Below are positions 4,767-36,204 of a stretch of 43,418 nt of DNA, piece by piece. The position numbers and the translations under genes are program-made. The notes below the pieces were generated by a model. The model was not told the origin of the DNA, ran no database searches, and was given only the letters and a program-made list of their open reading frames with translations. Numbering within the stretch: the first letter of the stretch is position 1; each line of letters starts with the position of its first letter. The DNA is from a virus. The stretch spans positions 1 to 43,418 of IMG/VR virus record IMGVR_UViG_3300046787_000228; one strand, written 5' to 3'.

Positions 4767-7700
4767 ATGTCAGACATCAATTACTATACCCGCCCGGTAG
4801 CCAAAACCTCTAACGCTGCAAAGCCTTACATTGGTTCAGGTAATACCGCTAAGTATTCTATTGCCGCAAGCAAATACATTGGTGGGCCAGTAAACGGCGA
4901 CGTAATGGACTACGTCCAACGCTACTCCCGCACAGGAAACTCTGGACAGCCTTCAGGTCGTTTAGACTACACTCAACAACCAAACACAGGAGACGACCTA
5001 CTAGGTAAAGTTGCTGAAGGTGGGCTAGGGGCAATTGGTTACGTATTCCGTGTCTTCACAGGGCTAGGTCGCGGAATCCTAAACGGGGCATACTCAGACC
5101 TACAGCACGCAAATAACATCGACCAAGCACTACAAGACGGATTCCAGGCTGAAGACTTTGGGAAGATCGCAGCCGAAGCAGGCGTAGGAATCTTAGACCA
5201 CGTATGGGGAAACTTTAAAGGTCTAGCCTCATCAGTAATCCCAGACTTCCAAAAAATGGTCGACCCTATCGACAACCGTAAAGTTCTCGATAGTTGGACT
5301 GAACTACTAGATAGCAAAGATTTTCGCAACAGTAGCGTAGGCAAAGGTCCTGTAGGCGATTGGGTAAACAACAAAGACCCATACCTAAGCACCCCACTAG
5401 GTGACTGGACTACCCAAAACACTGTAGGAACCGCCCTAGACATTTTCCTAGACCCAGCAACTTACCTAACCATGGGTATTGGTGGAGCAGTAAGAGGTCT
5501 CGGACGTGGTGTTGGTGCTGTATCCAAGTTCCGCCAGTCAGGTAAAGCCGCAGACTTCATAGCAACCAACCCTAAAAACGCACCTCGCCCATTCTATGCC
5601 CCTGCAGAAAAAGTTACAGGCAAGAAACTTCGCAAGCGTGTAGGTAACCAAGAACCAATCAACACCCCAAACTACACGGTAGCAAACACCAACCCAGCCC
5701 TCTATATCCTAAAAGAAATGGGTCGAGGCTTCAAAGAAGCACACGGACAGGCGGCCGCCCGCCTAGCCGCCCGCACAACCGTTGCAGGTTTCCGCACACG
5801 AATCGTAGACGACGTAGCAAGCAAACTACACGGAACCGATATTACTGAAGAATCAGTAATTGAAATCGGCGGCAGGGCTTTAGATGACGTTCTAAAGAAA
5901 CAAGAAGATCTACTAAAGGCTAAGGGTGTAGAAGGACCTGCTAAAGACAGAATCCTTGAAGCCCTCCGCAATGATGTTAAGCCAGTCATTGACGACCTAG
6001 TAAAGTCAGACAACATCAATGTTCTACGAGCAAACATCGGTCGACAGGCTGTAGCAAACCTAGAAGAAATCGCTGCACAAAAAGGCATCACAATCGCTGA
6101 AGAAGCAGCAGTCCGTGTAGCAGACCAACTAGCCGCATCTTTCCCTGCACGCACCCAGATCTTCCCAAAGGCACAAGCAGCATCTGACCGCGAAATGGCA
6201 GATGAACTAAACAATCTTGCTGACACTATGCACGCACAGGCAAAGTCTGGTGGAGATGCTTTTGGTGAATGGGATGCTTTCGTTGCAAGAAACAAAGGCA
6301 ACGCTAGAATCCTAGACCAACTACGGGAACCTACCTCACAACCGATCGGTTTCCGTGCCCGCAAGTATGGCAAAAAAGACGCTGAAGCCGCTGCAACAAC
6401 CACGCAGAAGAAGGCTAAAGGTGCTAAGGGTGAAGCCCCTAAGAAGACTAACTATGAACAGCGGTTTATCGCCGCTTTGCAAAAGGAATGGCAGGGCAAA
6501 AACCCTTCGCCACTTTGGGATGCAAAAAACCTAGAAAACGACTGGCAGAACATGCTATCCGTTCGAGGACTAACTCGTGCAGACGGGCACGGTGGACACC
6601 ACGTTGCAAGCCTTGACGGTGAAAAACTACGCCAAGCAGGCATCTCGCCATCCCTACTAGCCGCCCGTATCCGTTACGCAGCCCTACGCCTTGAAGGTCC
6701 GAGCAAAATGCGTTACCTTCTGGACGAACTAAAGAACAGAGGATACAACCCGCTAACGGCACACGCAGGCGTTCCACGCTCTCTAAACATGCCAACCACC
6801 AAAGAGGCTGCCGCTAAGGCAAAAGCCGCTGACAACGGCGAGATCACCGTTTTGAGGGGTCTAGCATACGGGCACATGAAGAGTGCTGCAGGAACTATCA
6901 CCGACCTGGAAACACGCCGTATTCTAACCAAACTAGGCTTCCCTGAAGAAAACCTAGACCTACTGGGCGTTAAAGCAAAAACAAAGATTAGCCTAGACGA
7001 CATTTCAGAAACAATCTCAAATGCTCGTGCACAGAAGTTCATTAAAGCCCGCAGAACAATCCAAGAACAGATCGCTAAAAAGCAGGTAGACGTTGTCATT
7101 GGCGGAAAGACTGTAACCCTAACCGCTGCAAGTGTAGCCCGTATGGGTGACGAAAAAGTCATGCAGATCATGGAACAAGCCCTGAAAAGCAGCAAGGTTA
7201 GAAGCGAACTAGTCTCAGCAAAAGAACTAGAATACGCTACAACCAGCCTTGAAAAGGTTCGTGCAGACCAAATGTCAAGCCTTGTATGGTTAACAAGCAA
7301 CGGATTCGACATCCACAACATCCACGCACCACTATACACAGCAATCACTCGCACACGAGACTCCATTGCTGGAGCCATTAGCCGTCCAGCATTCAAAAAA
7401 GTATTCGCAGATGACGCTGGAGAACTAATCCCACGCCACATCCCAGGATTCATGAGCCACCTATATGCAGCATCAAAGCACTCATCAAGCCTAGACGGTG
7501 GACTATTCGCACAAAAGATTGACGAACTTCTCGCATCCCGAGGAGAAGCCCCAATCGGCAACATTGCAACCCTACGAGGAAAGGCTCAGATCCTTTCCAG
7601 GGTAGCCCTAGACTCAGCCTGGACCGAATACATCACCCCAGGACTACTCCACACTGTAGAAGTTAGAACAGCAAGCAGCGTCAAACCTACCGGTGCAAAA

Positions 7701-10700
7701 ATGTCTGGACGAACCCTAAAGAAGTTTGAAGACGAACTAAACGGTATGGCTCAAGCCCAATACGACCGACTAATCAATGAAATGCTTACGGCTCGACTAA
7801 CAACCCCAGGTTGGGAAGCCGGTAAAATTGAGATCAGCCCATCAGAGTTCTTAGCAAACCGTAAACTACCAGCAGGAAGCCGACCAATCCCTAAGTTTGT
7901 GGATGGCGAAATATTCCCTGAAGCAGCAGCGGCAGCAGAAAAAGCAGTTGCCAACACTGAACTACGAGTCGACGCAGAAGTTCTTAAATGGATTCAGGAC
8001 CTTTACCGTGACGGAGCACAACTACCTGTCTACCGTCGAGTAAACGGTAAAACAACCAAACTTGGACCACAGGACACTGTAAAGTCAGGCGACTTTGTCT
8101 CATCAAAAGACTTCGGTAAATATGCTGCAGACCGAACTGTTGGGAAAGTAAAAAACTCTATCGAGGATATCTCAACAAAACTAAATACTAAACTAATCGG
8201 ATTAAACTACGATAAGGCAAAGAGTGCAGCACTCAAGAAGATTGCTGAACGAGAAATCCAAGACCTAATCCCAGACAGCCTTAAGCCAGAAGTCCTAGCA
8301 AAATGGATTAAAAGAGAAGTTGGACTCAGCGACTCATCCCCAGCCCGAGTAGCCGCAGGAATTAACGCCCGATTCTGGCATGCACACGAAATGGTTCCAG
8401 CAGAGCGTGAAGTAGACATCCGCCTGCAAGGCACAATCTACGCCAGAAGCACTAAAACACAGAAACTTGGCAAAGACCTACTCACTTCACAGCGAAACAC
8501 CTTCAGTAAAGTCGTCACAAACATCGAAACTGCCATCAGAAAAGAAGGCGTAAAGTATGCTGACGCTAAATGGGACGGAAAAATGTCCCTCGAAGGTGTC
8601 CTAGAAAGCGGAAACCCTAAACTATTCGTAGACTGGCTAAAAAACAAGGTAGTTCTATCGATCACTGACCGTGCTGAATGGGAAAGTGCAATGACCCACA
8701 TCAGTAACATGACAAAAACTGTTGACGGTCGTCGAGGATACGCAAGTTACAAAGAACTAATCGACAGTTACTACCCAACCAAGCGTAGCCGACTACTCCC
8801 CGGCGACATTAACCCTGCCACTGGAAAGCCAGTTCCTACTGAACAGCAGGTTCTACAGGTCCTAGACGCTCTAGGAGTGACTCGTGCACGAGAAATGCTA
8901 GACGCAGCAACCATTGCTAACAAGACTGACGTAATGAAACTGCTAAGTGACAGCCGTCGCAAACTAAAGTTCCAGGAAATTGAAGCCGCAAAGGAAATGG
9001 ACTACATCCGTCGTGTCTCTATGGTTAATGGCGACAATGTATCGGCAATGGTTGAGGCTCTACCTAGCCCTGAGATCTACCACGAGCAGTGGGCAGCCAT
9101 GTTCTTGGGAGAAATCCAACGCTTAGAAGCAGAAGGACTATCTGAACTTGTCCCACTTGCAGGTATCGTAGGTGGAACAAGTTTTGCAAAATTCTTTGAA
9201 AAGTCTGCAGCATCAATCCTAGAAGAAGACTCACTGGGTCGACTCTACCGCACAGACATGCCAAAAGAAGTCTTTGCACAGATGCAGAAAGACGGACTAC
9301 AGCCTCAACGTCTTGCAATTAAAGAGAACTTTGACAAAGAAACTCTTTACACTGGTTGGAAGACTCTGATAAAAAACCTTCAGGGAATGGCAGATAACCG
9401 AGGTTTGGTAGAAGGTCACCCATTACGCTCAGCGTGGATGGCAGAAACAGCAGTTCGTGTCCTACGCCTACGAGACTACTACCTTCAGGCTCGAGGAATC
9501 TTCTCAAGCAACACAATCAACGTCACCCACGGAGAACACCTGCTACTCGGAGCGGGCGACCTAGCAAAACTAAGTGCCTCAGAAAAACGAGCACTAAGTT
9601 ATGCAGCCTATATCTCAGAAGCCGATGTCATGGAAGTTCTTGGCATAGACAACGTAGCCAACCTATTCATGAAGGGTGCCGGAGAGAGCCTCCCAATCAC
9701 TTCAATAGTTCCAGCAGCCCGTCTACTTATCAAGGCTATGGACTCGCTTGAGAACGGAAAATGGTTCACCCAAATCCAAATCGATGCAATGGAGCACGAG
9801 ATGGTAGACCTAATGGGAAACAACATCCTACACACAAACCGTGGATCAGGCATGGGTAACCTACTAGTTCACGACCGTGAACAGGCACTAAAGCGAATAG
9901 GAACAGTAGTAGCAACCCTACTACACCCAACAAATGCTCGCCACCTATTCGACATTCACACAGCAAACGCTGCACAAGCAATTCAAATACTCAAATACAA
10001 AGCCGGCTCAGTATCTGAACCAGTCAAGGAAAACCTACGCAAACTACTAGACAGCGACATGTCAAACAGTGGTGCAAACATGGACGCTGTTAAAAAAGTC
10101 CAAGACGAAATTAACAAAATGCTGGGAATCAACCCACTAAGTGCAGAAGCAGAAGCACTAGCCCGCATGGACATCAGTGCCTGGATTGCAGCCCGAATAG
10201 ACCCAGGTTCAGCAATCATCCTCAAAGAAGCCCAGAAAGTCAGCAAACTATCTGATGAAGGTCAAGCAATCGCTGACATTCAAGGCATGAACGGTGCACG
10301 TGTAGAAACACAGCAAGACGCAGGCGAACTACTATTCCATGACCTATTAGCCGAAAAAGGCTTGGCAGTAATCGACTCAGGTGGTAGCGACGAACTACTA
10401 TTCGACGCAACCCTACACTTGACCGCTAACCGTCAAGAAATCATGGGTAAACTACGCTTCGCAGACCGAATTATGGGTGCACTATTCTCAAGTCACCGTA
10501 TGGAGAACCTACGCTCATTCGCTGACGCACCAGAAATGGCTGCAAAAGACCTAGCCGTCCAGTTCGAGCACACCGCACTCTTAACCAAGCAAGAATGGGA
10601 ACCAATCATCCAGTCATCTGGACGTAACTACCTAACTGAAGCATTCAAGATTATTCAGAAAATGCCTGAAGAAGACCTAATCAAAGCAACTACAGCATTA

Positions 10701-12815
10701 GATAACCTAGTCCAATTAGCCGAAAAAGCAAAAGCATTAGGTAAGCAAGTATCTACCCTGGAAGAATACGGAAAACTTGTCGAAGACCTGAAAATCCTTG
10801 AAGACGCTATTGCTGGAACAACCAACGGTCCTGCAGATGCAATGCTACAAAAGGCTGTCCGTGACCTATGGGCTCTATGGAGCCCAGTAGTAGGTGGCGG
10901 AAAGAACTCCGCAATCAACCTATCAGGACACAATGCTGACTGGATTAACCGAAACATTATGGAACTAGGTGTCGGTCAATACAAAGACATGATTAAGATC
11001 AACGACCTGACTGGCGAAACTACCTACACAAAGGTTAAAGACGCTTTCGGATTCCGTCGTGCAGCCAGTGCCAACGACCTATCACGCCAATGGACTGAAT
11101 GGGAGATCGACAACCCACTAGAAGCCGTTGTAGGACTAAACGCAGCCCTATACCGTGCCAACAAGGTGCCACTAGCAGCAGCAAACATTACTGACGCTTA
11201 CGGTGTCCCACTAGACACCTTTGCAAACGCTGCAGCAGCAAAGGCTGCAGGATATGTAAAAATCAAGTCCATCAAATACCCTGGACAAGGCAACGAACTA
11301 ATCCACTTCATGCCAACCGACTCTTACTACTACCCAGAGTTCATCGCACAAGAACTAGGAGACTTCTCTAAGTTCCTAACTGAGATTAAGAACATGCAAA
11401 GAACTGGTGTTCTCGAGCGTGGACTACTAGCAATCCAGCCACTACAGAACCTGGCAAAGCAGAACATGACCTTGCTGACCGCAAAGAACTGGGTTCAGAA
11501 CGAGGTTGGTGGATGGATTACCAACTATATAAAGGGTGTTCATAGTCCACTAACCATGCCACGTGCAGTAAAAATGCTCAAAACTGGCGGCGTAAAAATA
11601 GAAAAAGACGGTTACGACCTAACCCGAACTGAGGCTCTAGTAGCAGAATACATTGCAAAACAGCCAAAAAACAAGATCACAATCCGCCCAGAGAACGACC
11701 CAGTCAAGGGAACAAGCGTTCTAATTCGCCTAAAAGGTAAAGACATAGCCATAAGTTATGGAGATCTTTACCAACTCTTCAACAAGTTCGGCGGACACGT
11801 TCCACGTGCCCAGTCACGAGACCTAGACATGCTAGGTGAAATTGGTGACGGCATTAAGAAACTTAAGAAGGAAAACATTTGGGACAAAACCACTCGCAAA
11901 CTAGGTGATGCGGCCGGTGCCCGAGACGACCGTCTACGAGCAACCTTATTCATCGATATGATGATGAAGAGTAACTGGAAGTCTCTTGAAGACGGAGCCC
12001 GTTTCGCTATGAAAGAAGTGAACCGCGTGCACCCACAATTGCAAGGTCTAAGCACTTTCAACCAGAAATACACCCGCCAACTAACCCTATTCTACACCTG
12101 GCGAGCAAAAACTCTAGGCTGGATCCTAATGGACCTACTAGACAAGCCAGGAGCAATCCTAACTGGAGCAAAACTACAGTATGCAATGATGCAGTCACAG
12201 GGTGCAGGTCTAAGCCAGTTCGGTGACTTTGACCCAGCCGGACCAACCCCAAGTTACCTACAAGGCAACATGGACCCAACCTTCCGTGACCCAGTAACAG
12301 GTGAACTTCGCACATTCACCATCTCGAACCCTGTAACTGACCTTCTAGGAACTTCAGGATGGTTGTCAGGTCTGCGTTTTAACTCTTATGACTCGCCAGG
12401 AGTGCAAGCAGTGAACGTAACAATGAACACTTACAACAAGTTTGTAAACAGTTCTCAGCCACTGCTACTATCTTTGTTCGTAGACTCTAACGAGTTTAAA
12501 ACTCAGGGCGGAACAAAACTAATGTCTGGTGGAAGCATCACCAAAGACTTCATCCCGCTAACTGTAGAAGATGCACTATCTCGTATTGGTTGGGGACCAC
12601 AGCACACATTTGTTGCAAGCCTCTTCCCAGAGATTGCACTAAAAGCAGCCTGGGATGGAAAAAGCAAAGAGCAAGTAGACAAAGCCAAGTGGGATAACAT
12701 TATCAACTGGATAACGGGTTTACGGCTCAAAGATAGGCAAACCCTCGACATCCGCCAAAAAGGTGTATCAGAGGTCCTAGCCAAACTACAGGATCTTAAC
12801 CCAGCGGTTAAGTAA
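4767..12815 (+). CDS. Giant virion protein, 2,682 aa
   Basis: This one gene takes nearly a fifth of the genome. The N-terminus (about 1-80) is low complexity. It is followed by a Gly/hydrophobic segment (about 85-130) and the patch DIFLDPATYLTMGIGGA near residue 230, a pattern common in very large phage structural proteins. Most of the centre is charged helix. Near residue 2240 WVQNEVGGWITNYIKG, and near residue 2440 TLFYTWRAKTLGWILMDLL, match the kind of membrane-active C-terminal segments seen in large phage and polyvalent proteins. I found no lytic-transglycosylase or RNA-polymerase motif I could defend. It probably is an ejected internal protein. It has its own extended -10 promoter and a strong terminator just after its stop. 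Confidence 0.8.
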   Translation: MSDINYYTRPVAKTSNAAKPYIGSGNTAKYSIAASKYIGGPVNGDVMDYVQRYSRTGNSGQPSGRLDYTQQPNTGDDLLGKVAEGGLGAIGYVFRVFTGLGRGILNGAYSDLQHANNIDQALQDGFQAEDFGKIAAEAGVGILDHVWGNFKGLASSVIPDFQKMVDPIDNRKVLDSWTELLDSKDFRNSSVGKGPVGDWVNNKDPYLSTPLGDWTTQNTVGTALDIFLDPATYLTMGIGGAVRGLGRGVGAVSKFRQSGKAADFIATNPKNAPRPFYAPAEKVTGKKLRKRVGNQEPINTPNYTVANTNPALYILKEMGRGFKEAHGQAAARLAARTTVAGFRTRIVDDVASKLHGTDITEESVIEIGGRALDDVLKKQEDLLKAKGVEGPAKDRILEALRNDVKPVIDDLVKSDNINVLRANIGRQAVANLEEIAAQKGITIAEEAAVRVADQLAASFPARTQIFPKAQAASDREMADELNNLADTMHAQAKSGGDAFGEWDAFVARNKGNARILDQLREPTSQPIGFRARKYGKKDAEAAATTTQKKAKGAKGEAPKKTNYEQRFIAALQKEWQGKNPSPLWDAKNLENDWQNMLSVRGLTRADGHGGHHVASLDGEKLRQAGISPSLLAARIRYAALRLEGPSKMRYLLDELKNRGYNPLTAHAGVPRSLNMPTTKEAAAKAKAADNGEITVLRGLAYGHMKSAAGTITDLETRRILTKLGFPEENLDLLGVKAKTKISLDDISETISNARAQKFIKARRTIQEQIAKKQVDVVIGGKTVTLTAASVARMGDEKVMQIMEQALKSSKVRSELVSAKELEYATTSLEKVRADQMSSLVWLTSNGFDIHNIHAPLYTAITRTRDSIAGAISRPAFKKVFADDAGELIPRHIPGFMSHLYAASKHSSSLDGGLFAQKIDELLASRGEAPIGNIATLRGKAQILSRVALDSAWTEYITPGLLHTVEVRTASSVKPTGAKMSGRTLKKFEDELNGMAQAQYDRLINEMLTARLTTPGWEAGKIEISPSEFLANRKLPAGSRPIPKFVDGEIFPEAAAAAEKAVANTELRVDAEVLKWIQDLYRDGAQLPVYRRVNGKTTKLGPQDTVKSGDFVSSKDFGKYAADRTVGKVKNSIEDISTKLNTKLIGLNYDKAKSAALKKIAEREIQDLIPDSLKPEVLAKWIKREVGLSDSSPARVAAGINARFWHAHEMVPAEREVDIRLQGTIYARSTKTQKLGKDLLTSQRNTFSKVVTNIETAIRKEGVKYADAKWDGKMSLEGVLESGNPKLFVDWLKNKVVLSITDRAEWESAMTHISNMTKTVDGRRGYASYKELIDSYYPTKRSRLLPGDINPATGKPVPTEQQVLQVLDALGVTRAREMLDAATIANKTDVMKLLSDSRRKLKFQEIEAAKEMDYIRRVSMVNGDNVSAMVEALPSPEIYHEQWAAMFLGEIQRLEAEGLSELVPLAGIVGGTSFAKFFEKSAASILEEDSLGRLYRTDMPKEVFAQMQKDGLQPQRLAIKENFDKETLYTGWKTLIKNLQGMADNRGLVEGHPLRSAWMAETAVRVLRLRDYYLQARGIFSSNTINVTHGEHLLLGAGDLAKLSASEKRALSYAAYISEADVMEVLGIDNVANLFMKGAGESLPITSIVPAARLLIKAMDSLENGKWFTQIQIDAMEHEMVDLMGNNILHTNRGSGMGNLLVHDREQALKRIGTVVATLLHPTNARHLFDIHTANAAQAIQILKYKAGSVSEPVKENLRKLLDSDMSNSGANMDAVKKVQDEINKMLGINPLSAEAEALARMDISAWIAARIDPGSAIILKEAQKVSKLSDEGQAIADIQGMNGARVETQQDAGELLFHDLLAEKGLAVIDSGGSDELLFDATLHLTANRQEIMGKLRFADRIMGALFSSHRMENLRSFADAPEMAAKDLAVQFEHTALLTKQEWEPIIQSSGRNYLTEAFKIIQKMPEEDLIKATTALDNLVQLAEKAKALGKQVSTLEEYGKLVEDLKILEDAIAGTTNGPADAMLQKAVRDLWALWSPVVGGGKNSAINLSGHNADWINRNIMELGVGQYKDMIKINDLTGETTYTKVKDAFGFRRAASANDLSRQWTEWEIDNPLEAVVGLNAALYRANKVPLAAANITDAYGVPLDTFANAAAAKAAGYVKIKSIKYPGQGNELIHFMPTDSYYYPEFIAQELGDFSKFLTEIKNMQRTGVLERGLLAIQPLQNLAKQNMTLLTAKNWVQNEVGGWITNYIKGVHSPLTMPRAVKMLKTGGVKIEKDGYDLTRTEALVAEYIAKQPKNKITIRPENDPVKGTSVLIRLKGKDIAISYGDLYQLFNKFGGHVPRAQSRDLDMLGEIGDGIKKLKKENIWDKTTRKLGDAAGARDDRLRATLFIDMMMKSNWKSLEDGARFAMKEVNRVHPQLQGLSTFNQKYTRQLTLFYTWRAKTLGWILMDLLDKPGAILTGAKLQYAMMQSQGAGLSQFGDFDPAGPTPSYLQGNMDPTFRDPVTGELRTFTISNPVTDLLGTSGWLSGLRFNSYDSPGVQAVNVTMNTYNKFVNSSQPLLLSLFVDSNEFKTQGGTKLMSGGSITKDFIPLTVEDALSRIGWGPQHTFVASLFPEIALKAAWDGKSKEQVDKAKWDNIINWITGLRLKDRQTLDIRQKGVSEVLAKLQDLNPAVK

Positions 12816-13847: not shown

Positions 13848-14131
13848 TACTTATCCTTACGCTCTTCAAGTTTCTGGATAGTGTCCTGAGCGGCTTTAGC
13901 AACAGTTTCCTTACTTGCTTTGCCAGTAATACCAATGGCATAACCGACAGCACCAATAACACCAAGCATCAAAGTGCCCCAAGTGATCAAGATACCATCA
14001 AACCATTTACCAGTAATAATGGCACCCATAGTGCCTGAACCACCAATAATGTAGAGGAAAATACCCCAACCACGCCATAGAAGTTCAGTAAGAACCTCTA
14101 CAACCGCTGTAATACGCTCTTTAAACGACAT
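13847..14131 (-). CDS. Holin-like protein, two membrane segments, 94 aa
   Basis: Two hydrophobic stretches are visible, about residues 19-42 (GWGIFLYIIGG and on) and 46-70 (GILITWGTLMLGVIGAVGYA). They are followed by a charged, lysine-rich C-terminal helix. Small size, two membrane spans, a charged tail and direct overlap (11 bases) with the CHAP endolysin gene all fit a class II type holin that releases the endolysin through the cytoplasmic membrane. Holins are too diverse for naming by eye, and the 82-residue membrane protein at 15458 is an alternative or partner holin. Confidence 0.65.
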   Translation of the reverse strand: MSFKERITAVVEVLTELLWRGWGIFLYIIGGSGTMGAIITGKWFDGILITWGTLMLGVIGAVGYAIGITGKASKETVAKAAQDTIQKLEERKDK

Positions 14132-14783
14132 CTGGACCTACCTTAGGGTTAGCCTCGAGTTTAGCCACCAAAGCAGCCACAGCAGGGTCAAGGGCAGGTT
14201 TTGCTACCTCGACTGGAGTGATTACAGGTGGAGTGGTTACAGGGGCTACAGGAGCCGCTACAGGGGTGTATGCTGGACGACCAACACCAATGATGACTGA
14301 CATGTTACGCCACTGCTTCAAAACAGCACCGCCATTAGACAAGTCAGAACGACCAGTGTTACCTTCAATAGTTAGCACACGCTTACGCTTAGTATCAACC
14401 TTCACGACGATACCCGTGTGGTCTGGGCTGTGGTTGTGATCCCAGTCGAAGAACGCAATGTCACCAGGCTTAGCCTTAATAACTGGAAGCCAAGCCTTCT
14501 TCTTCTTAAACCAAGCAATACCCTTAGAGCACAGTGCGTAGCCCTTCTTAGACTGTGCACCGTTAATGGTCTTACCGTTACCAGAGTGGTTTAGGCAGTA
14601 AGAAACAAACATTGCACACCAAGCGGTCTGAACGCCATACCAAGCACCAAACAAGGTATGGTTACTGTTCTTAGGTTTCTCCGTATACTTCTGGTCAACG
14701 TAGAACTGGGCTACAGCAATAAGTGCTGCAGCAGTTCCAGGCTCAATACCCTTTTTAACAAGGATAGGATGAGGTGCAGACAT
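14121..14783 (-). CDS. CHAP-domain endolysin
   Basis: Residues about 12-155 form a CHAP amidase/endopeptidase domain. The nucleophile Cys lies in TAWCAMFVSYC, the His in PDHTGIVVKV, and the third polar residue in EGNT. The family cleaves peptidoglycan cross-links or amide bonds. After it comes a Pro/Val/Ala-rich linker and a short C-terminal tail without an obvious wall-binding repeat, which the neighbouring LysM protein could supply. I place the start at the ATG at 14783, since an AAGGG ribosome site lies 6 bases upstream and the longer version would need a GTG at 14807. It begins one base after the LysM gene stop and overlaps the holin gene. Confidence 0.85.
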   Translation of the reverse strand: MSAPHPILVKKGIEPGTAAALIAVAQFYVDQKYTEKPKNSNHTLFGAWYGVQTAWCAMFVSYCLNHSGNGKTINGAQSKKGYALCSKGIAWFKKKKAWLPVIKAKPGDIAFFDWDHNHSPDHTGIVVKVDTKRKRVLTIEGNTGRSDLSNGGAVLKQWRNMSVIIGVGRPAYTPVAAPVAPVTTPPVITPVEVAKPALDPAVAALVAKLEANPKVGPDVV

Positions 14784-14784
14784 G

Positions 14785-15456
14785 TTATCCCTTCGGAAGT
14801 TTGACACCAGTTCCGGTGTAGGTGCGGTTCACCTTGCCGTTAGTGCTGTTCAACTTCTTGATCTTCGCCCACCATGCGGAAGTGCTAGTTCCAGCAGGAA
14901 CAGTCTTCTCCGCAACCTGCCATAGACCGTCACCCTTCTTAGCACGGTAAACCGTAGGGGTTGGTGCAGGCTTTACTGGACGCTTACCAGGACCTGGAAC
15001 TGGGTCAGGCTTTCCTGGGCCCTTTGGGGTTAGACGGTCAGGGTTACGGCCAGCATTAGGAACTGGACCCTTACCTGACTTATCAATGCGATCAGGAGAA
15101 GAGTTAAATGGTCCAACCTTAGGGGTAGGCTTACCGCCACCAGTAGTGTTAGATCCACGCTCAACAGCATCCTTGCCATAAACAGGCTTACGAGGAGTTT
15201 GCTCAGGAGCAACCTTACCTACAGTAGGGCGAGGACCTAGGTTAGGCTTGCCACCACCAGTAGTGTTAGATCCACGCTCAACAGCATCTTTACCGTAACG
15301 TGCACTACGCTCAACACGGTCTTTAGTTACCTTGCCTGGAATGTTGAGGCCAGACTTAACCTTCTGACGGATGGCGTCAGCAATTGGACCACCAAGGGTC
15401 TTAGGAAGTGCCGGGGCAGCCTTTTTAGTTGGCGAGCCGCTTTCTGATGGACGCAT
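14785..15456 (-). CDS. LysM-type wall-binding protein with repeated linker, 223 aa
   Basis: The C-terminal 55 residues (YRAKKGDGLWQVAEKTV to the end) look like a LysM module, which binds N-acetylglucosamine in peptidoglycan. The first 165 residues are disordered, rich in Pro, Gly and Lys. They include the segment YGKDAVERGSNTTGGGKP twice, encoded by an exact 34-base direct repeat. No catalytic domain is visible, so it may be a wall-targeting partner of the adjacent CHAP endolysin or a virion wall-binding protein. A CAGGAG ribosome site precedes the ATG; the stop is one base from the endolysin start. Confidence 0.7.
   Translation of the reverse strand: MRPSESGSPTKKAAPALPKTLGGPIADAIRQKVKSGLNIPGKVTKDRVERSARYGKDAVERGSNTTGGGKPNLGPRPTVGKVAPEQTPRKPVYGKDAVERGSNTTGGGKPTPKVGPFNSSPDRIDKSGKGPVPNAGRNPDRLTPKGPGKPDPVPGPGKRPVKPAPTPTVYRAKKGDGLWQVAEKTVPAGTSTSAWWAKIKKLNSTNGKVNRTYTGTGVKLPKG
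15137..15287. repeat. Two exact 34-base direct repeats inside the LysM gene
   Basis: Bases 15137-15170 and 15254-15287 are identical and lie 117 bases apart in the same frame. They encode the duplicated linker of the LysM protein. Such repeats can expand or contract by recombination and may vary linker length between relatives. Confidence 0.9.
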
Positions 15457-21342: not shown

Positions 21343-21542
21343 TGGCTAAGATGGCGTCTTTGGATGCGGAGCAGCGGGAGATTCCTTGGGAATGGATCTT
21401 GTGGCGTAGGATTATTGCCTTTGCTATTGTTGGTTACCTGTTGTTGTTTGCTATTTTGGTGGTGATGGTTGTTAGCCTGTTTGTCGGAATTAGTGACAGC
21501 GGTGTGACAGCGTTATCCACAGTCTTTACCGTTATGTCGTGA
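21342..21542 (+). CDS. Small single-span membrane protein, 66 aa
   Basis: A charged N-terminus with several Trp residues (about 1-22) is followed by one long hydrophobic segment, about residues 23-50 (IIAFAIVGYLLLFAILVVMVV). The protein is probably anchored in the cytoplasmic membrane with a short outer tail. No family is recognised. Its last codons overlap two GTGACAGC repeats, a DnaA box and half of a palindrome belonging to the candidate origin, so gene and origin share bases. Early-region membrane peptides in phages often act on the host, for example in superinfection exclusion; that is conjecture here. Confidence 0.55.
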   Translation: MAKMASLDAEQREIPWEWILWRRIIAFAIVGYLLLFAILVVMVVSLFVGISDSGVTALSTVFTVMS

Positions 21543-21742: not shown

Positions 21743-21780
21743 TGTGGATAACTCTATTTAGAAGGTATGAGTTATCCACA
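21743..21780. repeat. 12-bp inverted repeat made of two DnaA boxes
   Basis: TGTGGATAACTC (21743-21754) and GAGTTATCCACA (21769-21780) are perfect complements around a 14-base A/T-rich centre. Each arm contains a consensus DnaA box facing the other. This could seat two DnaA molecules in opposite orientation or form a cruciform. Confidence 0.85.
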
Positions 21781-21997: not shown

Positions 21998-23674
21998 ATG
22001 TTTGTTGAAACAGACGTTGTTGTTACCAAAGATGAGCAGCAGTTAACCCGTTGGATCAGTGAGCATGTGCTTGACTGTCGCCGTTCTGGTATGTTGGAGA
22101 GTTACAGCAAGTCTCTTGTTGTTCCTACCGCTCACCAGATTGAGGTGTTCAGTGACACAGCATCTGCTACAGCCTATGCCAAGTATGTTATGGCTACGGC
22201 TAAACTGACTCAGTATGTTGTTGACAATCTTCGTAAGATTATTGTTGACGGGTTAGCAGGTTCAGAAGATAGGGTTATTGTTAAGAATTCGGGCTTGTCC
22301 TTGCCTCTTAACCTTGCCTCTATTGGTGAGTCTATGGCTGTCATCAATCGGGCTACTGTGCTTGAGCACATGGGTAATGTTCTTGAACCTCACCCTAGTT
22401 ACGAGAGTCGTTGGACTATTGTAGATGCTTACAAGCCTGCGTTCGAGGGTAACCTGGCTGAGGCGTATAAGCGTGCTCGTTCTTCTGTGTTGAACAGTGA
22501 GGCGTTCACTCATGCTGCCTATCAGGTTGGCACTACTATTCGTATGCTTGATGGTGTTGGTATTGAAACTGTTGCTGGTCTTGCCAGAACTAAACAGTTC
22601 ATGTCTAAGCACATTAAGTTGTCGCATAGTGCTGTTCGTGAGGCTCGTAACGATTTACTCCTTGAGCAGTCTCGTGCTGATAGTAATGCTAAGAGTCTTG
22701 CTAAGGCTGTGTCTCGTGATAAGTTCACTACCTTTTGGGGTGACATTAAGAACCAGATGGCTCGTAATGTGTTCCCTGCTGAGGTTACCCAGTCTTGGGA
22801 TTCGCTGATTCCTATTCCTGAAAAGGGCACTAATACTTCCAGAACTTGGGGTATTGAGGTTGAGACTGTTCAGGCTCAACGAGTTAGCCGCCCCCGCGGG
22901 TGGGAAGCCAAACCTGATGGCTCATTAGAGTCTATTGACGGTGAGGGTTGCGATTGTGACTGTTCTGACTGTTATGACGGTTATCACGAGAATTGTGAGG
23001 ACGAGTCTTCATGTATGGAATACGTGTCGCCTATCCTGTCACACTTCCACAGTGATGGTCTTAACCAGTTGTGTGGTCCTTTGGAGCATGCTCCTAAGAA
23101 CTCGTCTCCTGGTATCCATGTCCATGTTGGTGCTGATGACCTGTCTATTATGGATGTTGGTCGTCTAGTTCGTGCCTATTCACTGGTGTCACCGTTCCTC
23201 GAGCCTATCTCGTATCGTGAGACTCGCGGTTACTGTAAGGATGTCTCGTCAGAGAATCTTCAGTATTGGTTGTCTGCTGTCCGCAAAACCATGCGTGGCG
23301 AGTTGACTGACCGTTACGGTAACAACCAGTCGCTTACGCCTACTGACATTGTTCAGGCGGCGTATTATCAACCTGATGACCGTTATCGTGACCTCAACCT
23401 GATGAGCCTTACTGCTCATGGGACTATTGAGTTCCGAGTGATGGGTCCTCAGTATAACTACAACCACTTAGTTAAGTGGGCGTGGTTCTGTCGTGAGATG
23501 GTCAATGTTGCCCGTCTCGATCTGCCATCTAGCGTATGGTCTTCCGTTCGCTCTATGGCTGATGTTATTGGTGTGCTTAGACAATACGGTTCTGAGTTGC
23601 CATCAGAGAGCCCTGACAAGGAGATTGTCGCTCTAGCGAATGTGCTGAACGACACTGAACTTGTTGAGGCTTAA
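21998..23674 (+). CDS. Amidoligase (Amidoligase_2-type COOH-NH2 ligase), 558 aa
   Basis: Amidoligases join a carboxylate to an amine using ATP. The first 280 residues are a helical domain of unknown role. The ligase domain starts at about 286 with WGIEVETV. It continues with PDGSLES (about 307), MEYVSPI (about 340), PGIHVHVGADD (about 370), and DRYRDLNLMSL then GTIEFRVMGP (about 460-485), all in the order of the family. A Cys-rich insert (six Cys, about 318-339) sits between the first two motifs and may bind metal. A GGAG lies 12 bases before the ATG. The next gene encodes a glutamine amidotransferase that would supply ammonia. Substrate is unknown. Confidence 0.85.
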   Translation: MFVETDVVVTKDEQQLTRWISEHVLDCRRSGMLESYSKSLVVPTAHQIEVFSDTASATAYAKYVMATAKLTQYVVDNLRKIIVDGLAGSEDRVIVKNSGLSLPLNLASIGESMAVINRATVLEHMGNVLEPHPSYESRWTIVDAYKPAFEGNLAEAYKRARSSVLNSEAFTHAAYQVGTTIRMLDGVGIETVAGLARTKQFMSKHIKLSHSAVREARNDLLLEQSRADSNAKSLAKAVSRDKFTTFWGDIKNQMARNVFPAEVTQSWDSLIPIPEKGTNTSRTWGIEVETVQAQRVSRPRGWEAKPDGSLESIDGEGCDCDCSDCYDGYHENCEDESSCMEYVSPILSHFHSDGLNQLCGPLEHAPKNSSPGIHVHVGADDLSIMDVGRLVRAYSLVSPFLEPISYRETRGYCKDVSSENLQYWLSAVRKTMRGELTDRYGNNQSLTPTDIVQAAYYQPDDRYRDLNLMSLTAHGTIEFRVMGPQYNYNHLVKWAWFCREMVNVARLDLPSSVWSSVRSMADVIGVLRQYGSELPSESPDKEIVALANVLNDTELVEA

Positions 23675-23687
23675 TCGGTAAAACCTT

Positions 23688-23732
23688 GTAAGGGTGTGGG
23701 TTTGATGCCCCCTCATCCACCCACACCCTTAC
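23688..23732 (+). promoter_or_regulatory. Perfect 14-bp hairpin between the amidoligase and amidotransferase genes
   Basis: GTAAGGGTGTGGGT (23688-23701) pairs perfectly with 23719-23732 around a 17-base C/T-rich loop. It starts 14 bases after the amidoligase stop and ends before a TAGGAGG ribosome site for the next gene. No T-run follows, so it is more likely a processing, stability or attenuation element than a full terminator. It could set the ratio of the two enzymes. Confidence 0.8.
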
Positions 23733-23756
23733 ACTAACTAAATAGGAGGTATCACT

Positions 23757-24935
23757 ATGTGTGGTATTGGAGGCTTTAGCCTTAGTAAACAGTCAAAGAT
23801 TAATCCTCGTGCTTTAGGCAATGCGTTGCTTACAGCATTGGAGGACCGAGGTTACATGGCAAGCGGTATTGCTTGGCATGCTGACAATGCTCGCGGTCAT
23901 TACAAGGCGGCGACCCCCGGGAGTGGATTACCGCTCAAGTCAGTTCCCAAGAATGTTCATACAGCAATCGTCCATACCAGGTTAGCGACTCATGGGTCTA
24001 CTACGGATAACCGTAACAACCACCCTGTGCTGTCACCTAGTAAGAACATTGCTCTAGTTCACAACGGTGTTATCTACAACCACAACCATGTGCGAACGCT
24101 ATTAGCGGATCGTATCAAGTTTGAGGTTGACACTGCTGTTATCCCTGCTCTTATTGAGCAACACAATCACGACCTTGAGGGTCTGCGTGAACTGGATGGT
24201 GACGCAGCGATAGCATGGTTGCGTGATGATGACCCTGGCGTGTTGCGTATGGCTCGTCTAGAACATTCACCTATGACTATCTGTCAACTTGAGGACGGTT
24301 CGTTTGTGTTTGCCTCTACTGAAGCCTTGCTGTGGCGTGTGCTTGAGCAGTTGGACCTCATGCCTGACATGATGACTACTGTTGACGAATACACTTACAT
24401 CCAAGTTACTGCTGGTGTTATTCAGGAGATGTCTAAACTTAACCGTTCGACTGCTGTCAGTGCCAGTTACGACTATGGTTACTACCGTCACCAGACTGCT
24501 GGTGCTAAGGGTTCTACCCCTTACGAGTATGCCCCTAAGGCTACTGGTAATCGTTGGTATGACTCGTATGACTACGGTTATAGTGCCTATAGTGATGGCA
24601 AGGATTTCTACGATGACGACTATTGGAACTATGCGATAGAAAAGGCTACTAATGAACCTAAGAAGTTTGACTTCTTGGGTGCTGAGGTTACTGGTAAACC
24701 TGCCTATTACATAGCGTATCGTAGGTCAGGTGTTATGACTACTGACCTCACTCAAGCCCAGTATGCTTACTACAGTGCTAGTAAGTATGAGGACTATGAG
24801 GATGACCTTAACTGTTTCGATGAATGGGTTGAGGACTACATCCTTATGGACTATGGCATTGTGCTTGAGTCTGGTGAATTGTTTAGTGACATGAAGTCTG
24901 CTAAGGCTCAAGATTCTTCATGTGAGTTGTTCTAG
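23757..24935 (+). CDS. Class II glutamine amidotransferase (stand-alone), 392 aa
   Basis: The enzyme should hydrolyse glutamine to glutamate and ammonia. It begins MCGIGGFSLS, giving the catalytic Cys2 of the Ntn-type family. VHTRLATHG (about 72-80), NNHPV, VHNGVIYN (about 100-107) and FEVDTAVI (about 121-128) are the other conserved elements, in order. The glutaminase domain covers about 1-215. No synthetase domain follows, unlike GlmS, PurF or AsnB. Instead there is a 175-residue tail very rich in Tyr and Asp (about 240-310) with no recognised fold. A GGAGG ribosome site precedes the ATG. The upstream amidoligase is the obvious ammonia acceptor. Confidence 0.9.
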   Translation: MCGIGGFSLSKQSKINPRALGNALLTALEDRGYMASGIAWHADNARGHYKAATPGSGLPLKSVPKNVHTAIVHTRLATHGSTTDNRNNHPVLSPSKNIALVHNGVIYNHNHVRTLLADRIKFEVDTAVIPALIEQHNHDLEGLRELDGDAAIAWLRDDDPGVLRMARLEHSPMTICQLEDGSFVFASTEALLWRVLEQLDLMPDMMTTVDEYTYIQVTAGVIQEMSKLNRSTAVSASYDYGYYRHQTAGAKGSTPYEYAPKATGNRWYDSYDYGYSAYSDGKDFYDDDYWNYAIEKATNEPKKFDFLGAEVTGKPAYYIAYRRSGVMTTDLTQAQYAYYSASKYEDYEDDLNCFDEWVEDYILMDYGIVLESGELFSDMKSAKAQDSSCELF

Positions 24936-26767: not shown

Positions 26768-27098
26768 ACTAAAGAAGAAAAACAACCCGTATAACCTGTC
26801 AGGTAAACTTGACCACAAGCATGAGTCAAAGGTTGTGACAATCGAGATGGCTTACTACGTCCCTGAGGACGAAATGCATGCCAATGTTAAGATTCGTCAG
26901 GATGTCACTGACCCGGCTCTACTGGTTAAGTTGTTTCGTGGTGTAGAAAAGGCTATGCGTGCTATTAGCCCTGAATACAGTGAAGACATTGACTTGCTTG
27001 AGGCAGTCGCAAAGGCATACCTAGTAGATGGAGAGACTGATGGGTCTGGACAAGAACAAGATAACCGTAAACGACATGGAAAATGTCGATGTCAGTAA
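26760..27098 (+). CDS. Basic-start protein, 112 aa, unknown
   Basis: I chose the ATG at 26760, which overlaps the previous stop (ATGCCTAG); a longer frame from 26676 would run inside the previous gene. The product begins MPRLKKKNNP and continues with a beta-alpha segment (VVTIEMAYYVPEDEMHANVK). Its end overlaps the WhiB gene by about 60 bases in another frame. No family is recognised. Confidence 0.6.
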   Translation: MPRLKKKNNPYNLSGKLDHKHESKVVTIEMAYYVPEDEMHANVKIRQDVTDPALLVKLFRGVEKAMRAISPEYSEDIDLLEAVAKAYLVDGETDGSGQEQDNRKRHGKCRCQ

Positions 27099-27453
27099 AA
27101 TCTACGACTTTGACGGCTTACTCGGCTCATTTGCTGAGCAACGCTCTCACGTAGCATTACTTGAACGCATTGAAGAAGAGTTAGGCGACCCGCCTTGTGC
27201 ATCGTGGCCTGACGCTTTCTTTGCTGACATGGAGAATGTTGGTGACATTCAGCATGCTAAACAGTTGTGTAGGACTTGTCCTGTCATGATGCAGTGTGCT
27301 GAGCATGCGATGCGTTTCAACATCCCAGATGGTGTCTGGGGCGGTATGTCTGCGGGTGAACGCAAGGCTATTCGTGCAAAGAGTTACAATCGTTGGCAAA
27401 AGGCCCGAAAGAAAGAAGAGAATCGTGTCAAAGCACAATCTTCCGAAACTTAG
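27040..27453 (+). CDS. WhiB-family iron-sulfur transcription factor
   Basis: Four Cys residues lie at about 53, 77, 80 and 86 with the exact WhiB spacing (C...C-x2-C-x5-C). They are followed by the GVWGG turn and a basic C-terminus (RKAIRAKSYNRWQKARKK) that binds DNA. WhiB proteins hold a 4Fe-4S cluster, bind the host sigma factor and occur only in Actinomycetota and their phages. Mycobacteriophage TM4 WhiB is a known phage example affecting superinfection. The ATG at 27040 has GGAG 6 bases upstream; ATGs at 27028 and 27076 are alternatives. It overlaps genes on both sides. Confidence 0.9.
   Translation: MGLDKNKITVNDMENVDVSKIYDFDGLLGSFAEQRSHVALLERIEEELGDPPCASWPDAFFADMENVGDIQHAKQLCRTCPVMMQCAEHAMRFNIPDGVWGGMSAGERKAIRAKSYNRWQKARKKEENRVKAQSSET

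Positions 27454-34347: not shown

Positions 34348-34348
<1 letters not shown>
34172..34348 (-). CDS. Small protein coupled to the collagen-like fibre, 58 aa
   Basis: The start ATG overlaps the stop of the fibre gene (TAATG), and the frame runs 58 residues to a TAA inside the end of the convergent HNH gene. The product (MFEVVEMPTGRTLAEFEQNE and on) is acidic and helical. Tail-fibre chaperones and assembly factors are typically encoded immediately after the fibre, so an assembly role is a fair guess, but no family is recognised. Confidence 0.6.

Positions 34349-36204
<1,856 letters not shown>

Follow-up and report, generated by a model that had tools for sequence, protein, structure and literature searches.

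Adjoining genes for an Amidoligase_2 enzyme and a class II glutaminase have been described in several groups of phages. The pair forms part of the 'peptidoglycan modification cassette' of the phiEco32/LUZ24/RIO-1/PSA-HP1 podophages (PMC5498523; UFV-P2 table in PMC3890496), in which it lies in the early region and is accompanied by a COOH-NH2 ligase (PF14395), an ATP-grasp enzyme and a gamma-glutamylcyclotransferase (GGCT); in the region of LUZ24 genes 16-22 the amidoligase is followed directly by the glutaminase. The same order is found in Arthrobacter cluster AL Salgado (genes 98-99) and Ottawa (genes 65-66), with a GGCT-annotated gene nearby (PMC5513430), and the OM43 phages MEP401 and MEP402, together with more than 30 metagenomic genomes, are reported to carry PF12224 plus PF13522 (PMC10580990). 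In Lyrsu01 and Bjorn, where the amidoligase was recognised by profile, the pair or a more extensive set is present. In Gram-positives, MurT-GatD amidates peptidoglycan glutamate (PMC3267633, PMC5871853). It resembles the phage pair in joining a separate glutaminase with a ligase to amidate a carboxylate, and it illustrates how the pair may work. The folds of MurT-GatD are nonetheless unrelated to those of the phage pair, consisting of a Mur ligase-like protein and a class I glutaminase. A further likeness is to EgtA/EgtC of the ergothioneine pathway, in which a GCS2-type ligase is accompanied by a protein of class II glutaminase fold that hydrolyses a gamma-glutamyl amide.

Here we examined a viral record 43,418 bases long (the window, meaning the whole stretch of DNA analysed). 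Like the phiEco32/LUZ24-type cassette, the window carries an Amidoligase_2 gene adjoining a class II glutaminase gene in its early region (Table 1), but its amidoligase differs in having a Cys-rich insert, and its glutaminase in having a motif in the tail. No match to the COOH-NH2 ligase was found among the window's open reading frames with the LUZ24-type profile or in Pfam scans, and neither an ATP-grasp enzyme nor GGCT was detected at the sensitivity used. We therefore do not file the locus as a full member of the cassette, although the pair probably works in a similar way. Compared with the window, the Salgado and Ottawa proteins are shorter and only 25/35% identical, and the GGCT-annotated gene has no detected counterpart; the OM43 phages, likened here by family content, differ in having proteobacterial hosts. 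The sequence-only reading had called the target and purpose undescribed for this phage type. The pair itself is published, in the LUZ24/phiEco32-type, OM43 and Arthrobacter phages cited above, and the novelty that stands is confined to the reduced two-gene form with its extra parts. What is new is thus a stripped two-gene version in WhiB-bearing actinophages, with no detectable ATP-grasp enzyme, COOH-NH2 ligase or GGCT, and also its discordance with the phage backbone, the Cys-rich amidoligase insert, a conserved YRxxT[AS]G motif in the tail of the glutaminase, and a hairpin conserved between the two genes. Our preferred reading, to which we assign a probability of roughly 0.5, is that the glutaminase would supply ammonia with which the amidoligase amidates a carboxylate, most likely on a cell-wall peptide or precursor.

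Table 1. Features of the window and the evidence on which each is placed
Feature	Coordinates	Strand	Evidence or remarks
Amidoligase gene, 558 aa, Amidoligase_2	21998..23674	+	PF12224, Foldseek fold, invariant residues
N-terminal helical extension, residues 1-270	21998..22807	+	Well predicted, pLDDT ~90
Catalytic GS-like domain, residues 279-505	22832..23512	+	Pfam, AlphaFold2 model, Foldseek
Cys-rich insert between two core strands (C318, C320, C322, C325, H330, C333, C339)	22949..23014	+	
Intergenic RNA hairpin between amidoligase and glutaminase genes	23688..23732	+	z = -4.7 in window
Stand-alone class II glutamine amidotransferase gene, 392 aa	23757..24935	+	PF13522, fold, invariant residues
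YRxxT[AS]G linear motif, residues 243-249, start of disordered glutaminase tail	24483..24503	+	
Small predicted alpha/beta C-terminal domain, residues 310-384	24684..24908	+	Model; varies among relatives
WhiB family transcription factor gene	27028-27453		PF02467, 8e-17

The host of the window phage is very probably an actinobacterium, because the window encodes a WhiB protein (also present in 25 other related loci by clustering), a portal ~40% identical to that of Arthrobacter Jasmine-type phages, and a primase-polymerase resembling mycobacteriophage counterparts. The cultured backbone relatives Jasmine and DS1 have the virion module in common with the window and lack the amidoligase, which is therefore not essential to this phage type. 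An Rfam scan of the window returned no match. Additionally, we observed three exact DnaA-box sequences (TTATCCACA; 21513-21521, 21743-21751 and 21772-21780) just upstream of the amidoligase, two of the three inverted, against 0.31 expected by chance across the whole window, and this cluster is a possible replication origin. Elsewhere in the window, a 2,682-aa protein without a family match (4767-12815) sits between the virion and lysis genes and is 36% identical in the nearest relative, as opposed to ~90% for most core genes; a gene on the minus strand (14121-14807) encodes a CHAP-domain protein that is probably the endolysin; and a collagen-like tail fibre gene (34348-36204, minus strand) lies on the strand opposite to the packaging genes. 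Glutamine amidotransferases take part in some phage DNA modification pathways, which raises the idea that the pair serves DNA base hypermodification through an amide linkage. Among the window proteins scanned, however, there was no base oxidase, thymidylate-synthase-like enzyme, base kinase or other modification enzyme, and we regard this idea as highly improbable.

Upon examining the two proteins, we found both open reading frames and every motif quoted in the sequence-only reading in the translations, and its family assignments held in HMM searches. The amidoligase matches Amidoligase_2 with E = 1.6e-15 (58.1 bits against a Pfam cut-off of 22), the glutaminase matches GATase_6 (1.2e-19) and GATase_7 (4.5e-12), and PHROGs agree for both; PADLOC had no match for either. 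In the amidoligase the motifs are GIEVE (285-289), PDGS (306-309), EYVSP (341-345), GIHVHV (372-377), RYRDLN (462-467) and GTIEFR (475-480). Across 46 relatives, E287, E289, D307, G372, H374, E478 and R480 are invariant, and the ExE, DGS, HxH and ExR catalytic motifs of the family are invariant or nearly so. The amidoligase sequence had no match by sequence among solved structures. An AlphaFold2 model built from the family alignment (mean pLDDT 87.7) matched YbdK and glutamine synthetases in Foldseek (best E 4e-4, probability 1.00), the top 50 solved-structure matches listed were all GS/GCS-type, and the closest was YbdK, a GCS2-type ligase. The model thus points to a GS/GCS-like fold, though at an E-value of only 4e-4. 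Whole-chain TM-scores are low, in part because the helical N-terminal part of 270 residues has no obvious counterpart; this extension is also missing in relatives of ~300 aa. Among viral models, it is phage amidoligases that the model matches, those from Salgado, tf and CW02 among them. A BFVD entry from Mycobacterium phage Tesla named 'glutamine amidotransferase domain protein' (A0A2L1J0D3) matches the amidoligase by fold, and is possibly a misnamed amidoligase.

The glutaminase gene is preceded by an AGGAGG ribosome site, and no synthetase domain was found in its product by Pfam scan, in keeping with the earlier description of a stand-alone enzyme. It carries Cys2, VHTRLATHG (72-80), VHNG (101-104) and VDT (124-126), and C2, R75, N103, G104 and D125 are among the residues invariant over 53 glutaminases. 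Its predicted model matches the GlmS glutaminase domain (E ~1e-14), with which its Q-loop, HTRxATHG, also aligns, and the model shows a mostly disordered tail except for the small C-terminal domain. With the catalytic residues invariant in the 46 amidoligases and the 53 glutaminases, neither active site has been lost; a lost ligase site would have counted against the sequence-only reading.

Next, we surveyed the neighbourhoods of both genes. A glutaminase-only scan of viral contigs yielded 61 loci, in which the amidoligase was then sought by profile iteration; it adjoins the glutaminase in 55 of them, and in the remaining six the contig ends upstream of the glutaminase, at a distance of 0 to 0.9 kb. 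An alignment of all 46 amidoligases was too diverse to serve as a query, whereas alignments of single lineages worked, and the reverse scan used three amidoligase alignments. It recovered 32 distinct loci flanked by 2 kb or more on each side, and 24 of these contain a glutaminase when short GATase_4 forms are counted. A figure of 36/36 for glutaminase-seeded loci was circular and was not used. The pairing is near-obligate, which bears out the functional partnership proposed from the sequence rather than two genes that never co-occur. With duplicate fetches left out, the amidoligase lies upstream in 11 of the 55 loci on the same strand as the glutaminase and in another 34 on the opposite strand; it is downstream in 7 and present on both sides in 3. 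With these four arrangements, and so many loci having it on the opposite strand, the link is not simply that of one operon. Furthermore, amidoligase and glutaminase distances correlate at 0.77, and at 0.61 once the neighbouring helicase is controlled for, whereas the amidoligase-helicase correlation drops to 0.11. We found no amidoligase alongside cellular glutaminase loci from the same query, and no third constant partner among the loci, the nameable conserved neighbours being phage core genes. In two loci, L060 and L062, one glutaminase lies between two amidoligases, both of those in L060 having Cys-rich N-termini.

The amidoligase-seeded loci also bear on a different chemistry, in which the amidoligase would link an amine to glutamate or to a different amino acid, while its partner of glutaminase fold would hydrolyse a gamma-glutamyl amide rather than supply ammonia, much as EgtA and EgtC are understood to act. 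This is conceivable because several amidoligase loci carry GGCT, a cleaver of gamma-glutamyl amides, and no glutaminase: GGCT is present in 5/8 loci without a glutaminase against 1/24 with one (Fisher p = 0.0015). YbdK as the best solved match of the ligase and the many partners that are short GATase_4-like proteins of ~183 aa are consistent with it, as are a match of the glutaminase model to EgtC and a sub-threshold EgtC profile hit. However, the GGCT loci are clustered on the tree, with few independent swaps and no alternation between near relatives, so the association is only suggestive; the LUZ24-type and Arthrobacter phages carry GGCT and glutaminase together; and the Q-loop and the best profile matches are GlmS-like and much stronger than the EgtC profile hit, which is far below the cut-off. 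We regard make-and-cut chemistry as less likely than amidation, though as a serious rival to it. A repeated GATase/GGCT swap was tested on the tree, where the loci proved too clustered to establish it. Individual loci in which an amidoligase lies near GGCT with no glutaminase detected are L123, L124, L141, L158, L169 and L170, and in L127, L131 and L132, with at least 4 kb on each side, neither partner was detected.

Both proteins carry accessory parts that vary with lineage. The amidoligase insert is Cys-rich in 35 of the 46 relatives, C318 to C333 and H330 being invariant in the close group; it is probably metal-binding, and its region has a locally low pLDDT. Other lineages lack the insert and nearly all of those have a Cys-rich N-terminus instead. 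In the glutaminase, YRxxT[AS]G lies just after the core, in or beside a low-confidence segment of the model, and occurs in 43 of 53 sequences against 0.025 expected from shuffled tails; it is absent from exactly the 10 glutaminases of other lineages, all of which have Cys-rich tails. The main lineage combines an amidoligase bearing the insert with a glutaminase bearing the motif, and the other main lineage combines a LIM-like Cys-rich amidoligase N-terminus with a Cys-rich glutaminase tail, insert and motif both being absent. Such lineage-matched parts fit two docking designs, a pattern with few lineages behind it. The intergenic hairpin is found at the same place in L001 (z = -4.9) with a compensatory change in the stem, and its motif is not a repeated element elsewhere in the genome. 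The Cys-rich and LIM-like modules and the linear motif also resemble protein-binding parts, and in the 34 opposite-strand loci the amidoligase is mostly on the strand of the terminase and portal genes, both of which would suit a pair that modifies a protein, either of the virion or a host factor, at a Glu/Asp side chain or C-terminus. In the window, though, the pair is in the early region, away from the virion genes, and it is common to phages whose portals are not detectably related, and we think a protein target unlikely.

Upon comparing the pair with the rest of the genome, we observe that it diverges fast, in the manner of host-interaction genes. In the nearest relative, G001, the two proteins are 57% and 66% identical to those of the window, compared with 86-94% in most genes of the replication and packaging core, and in G002 they are 38% and 48% identical, many core genes being 70-78%. 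Two 91-kb phages, G003 and G005, have pairs 40-48% identical to that of the window and share almost nothing else with it in the stretches compared, their portals showing no detectable homology to that of the window. In the glutaminase tree, the window-type backbones L005, L006 and L049 cluster with L002, L003 and L087, which have no related portal, and the window and L001 fall outside this group (support 99/97); in the amidoligase tree that node is unresolved, yet compatible with the glutaminase tree. The pair is thus discordant with the phage backbone, the simplest reading of which is horizontal exchange as a unit between unrelated phages, although ancient loss or uneven rates may account for it. 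A recent host origin was not supported: the bacterial-genome matches of one search were only GlmS-type or other glutaminases, none with an amidoligase in the locus. Auxiliary metabolism, in which the pair would serve the infected cell by making a small amide or recycling nitrogen, has been suggested for Phage-ZRK32 (PMC10945688). The fast evolution and backbone discordance are more like those of a conflict gene, and we found no bacterial homologue that was close, all matches on genome contigs lacking an adjoining amidoligase, and for this pair such a role seems very unlikely. A broader form of the amidation reading is possible, and we put it forward tentatively: a self-contained two-gene cassette, swapped as a unit among unrelated actinophages, fast-diverging and with two docking designs, that would serve in conflicts with the host or with rival phages through amidation of a carboxylate on the surface or wall.

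The preferred reading, ammonia supply and amidation, follows the general chemistry of the two families: GS-like ligases turn an ATP-activated carboxylate into an amide, and class II amidotransferases release ammonia from glutamine. The glutaminase would hydrolyse glutamine at Cys2, and the ammonia would be passed on in a transient complex, for which the Cys-rich insert and the tail with YRxxT[AS]G may provide the docking. The GS-like site of the amidoligase (E287, E289, D307, H374, E478, R480) would bind ATP and Mg, and convert the target carboxylate into an acyl phosphate and then an amide. The likeliest target would be a carboxylate on a peptide of the actinobacterial wall or of a wall precursor, altered early in infection, and the change might serve, for example, to exclude other phages or to protect the wall. 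A wall target has been conjectured in print for the larger cassette (PMC5498523; PMC10580990), and the phage papers found in this analysis offered no experimental support for it.

We found no published substrate for a phage amidoligase-glutaminase pair, although the genes have been annotated for more than 10 years. The near-obligate linkage, the reduced form, the apparent mobility and the matched accessory parts make the question of the substrate testable, and in the two-gene form it can be addressed with two proteins, for which the survey points to the parts to mutate. If a wall or virion peptide is the target, the pair would represent a covalent phage modification whose chemistry is defined, and perhaps a means of superinfection exclusion that is common among actinophages.
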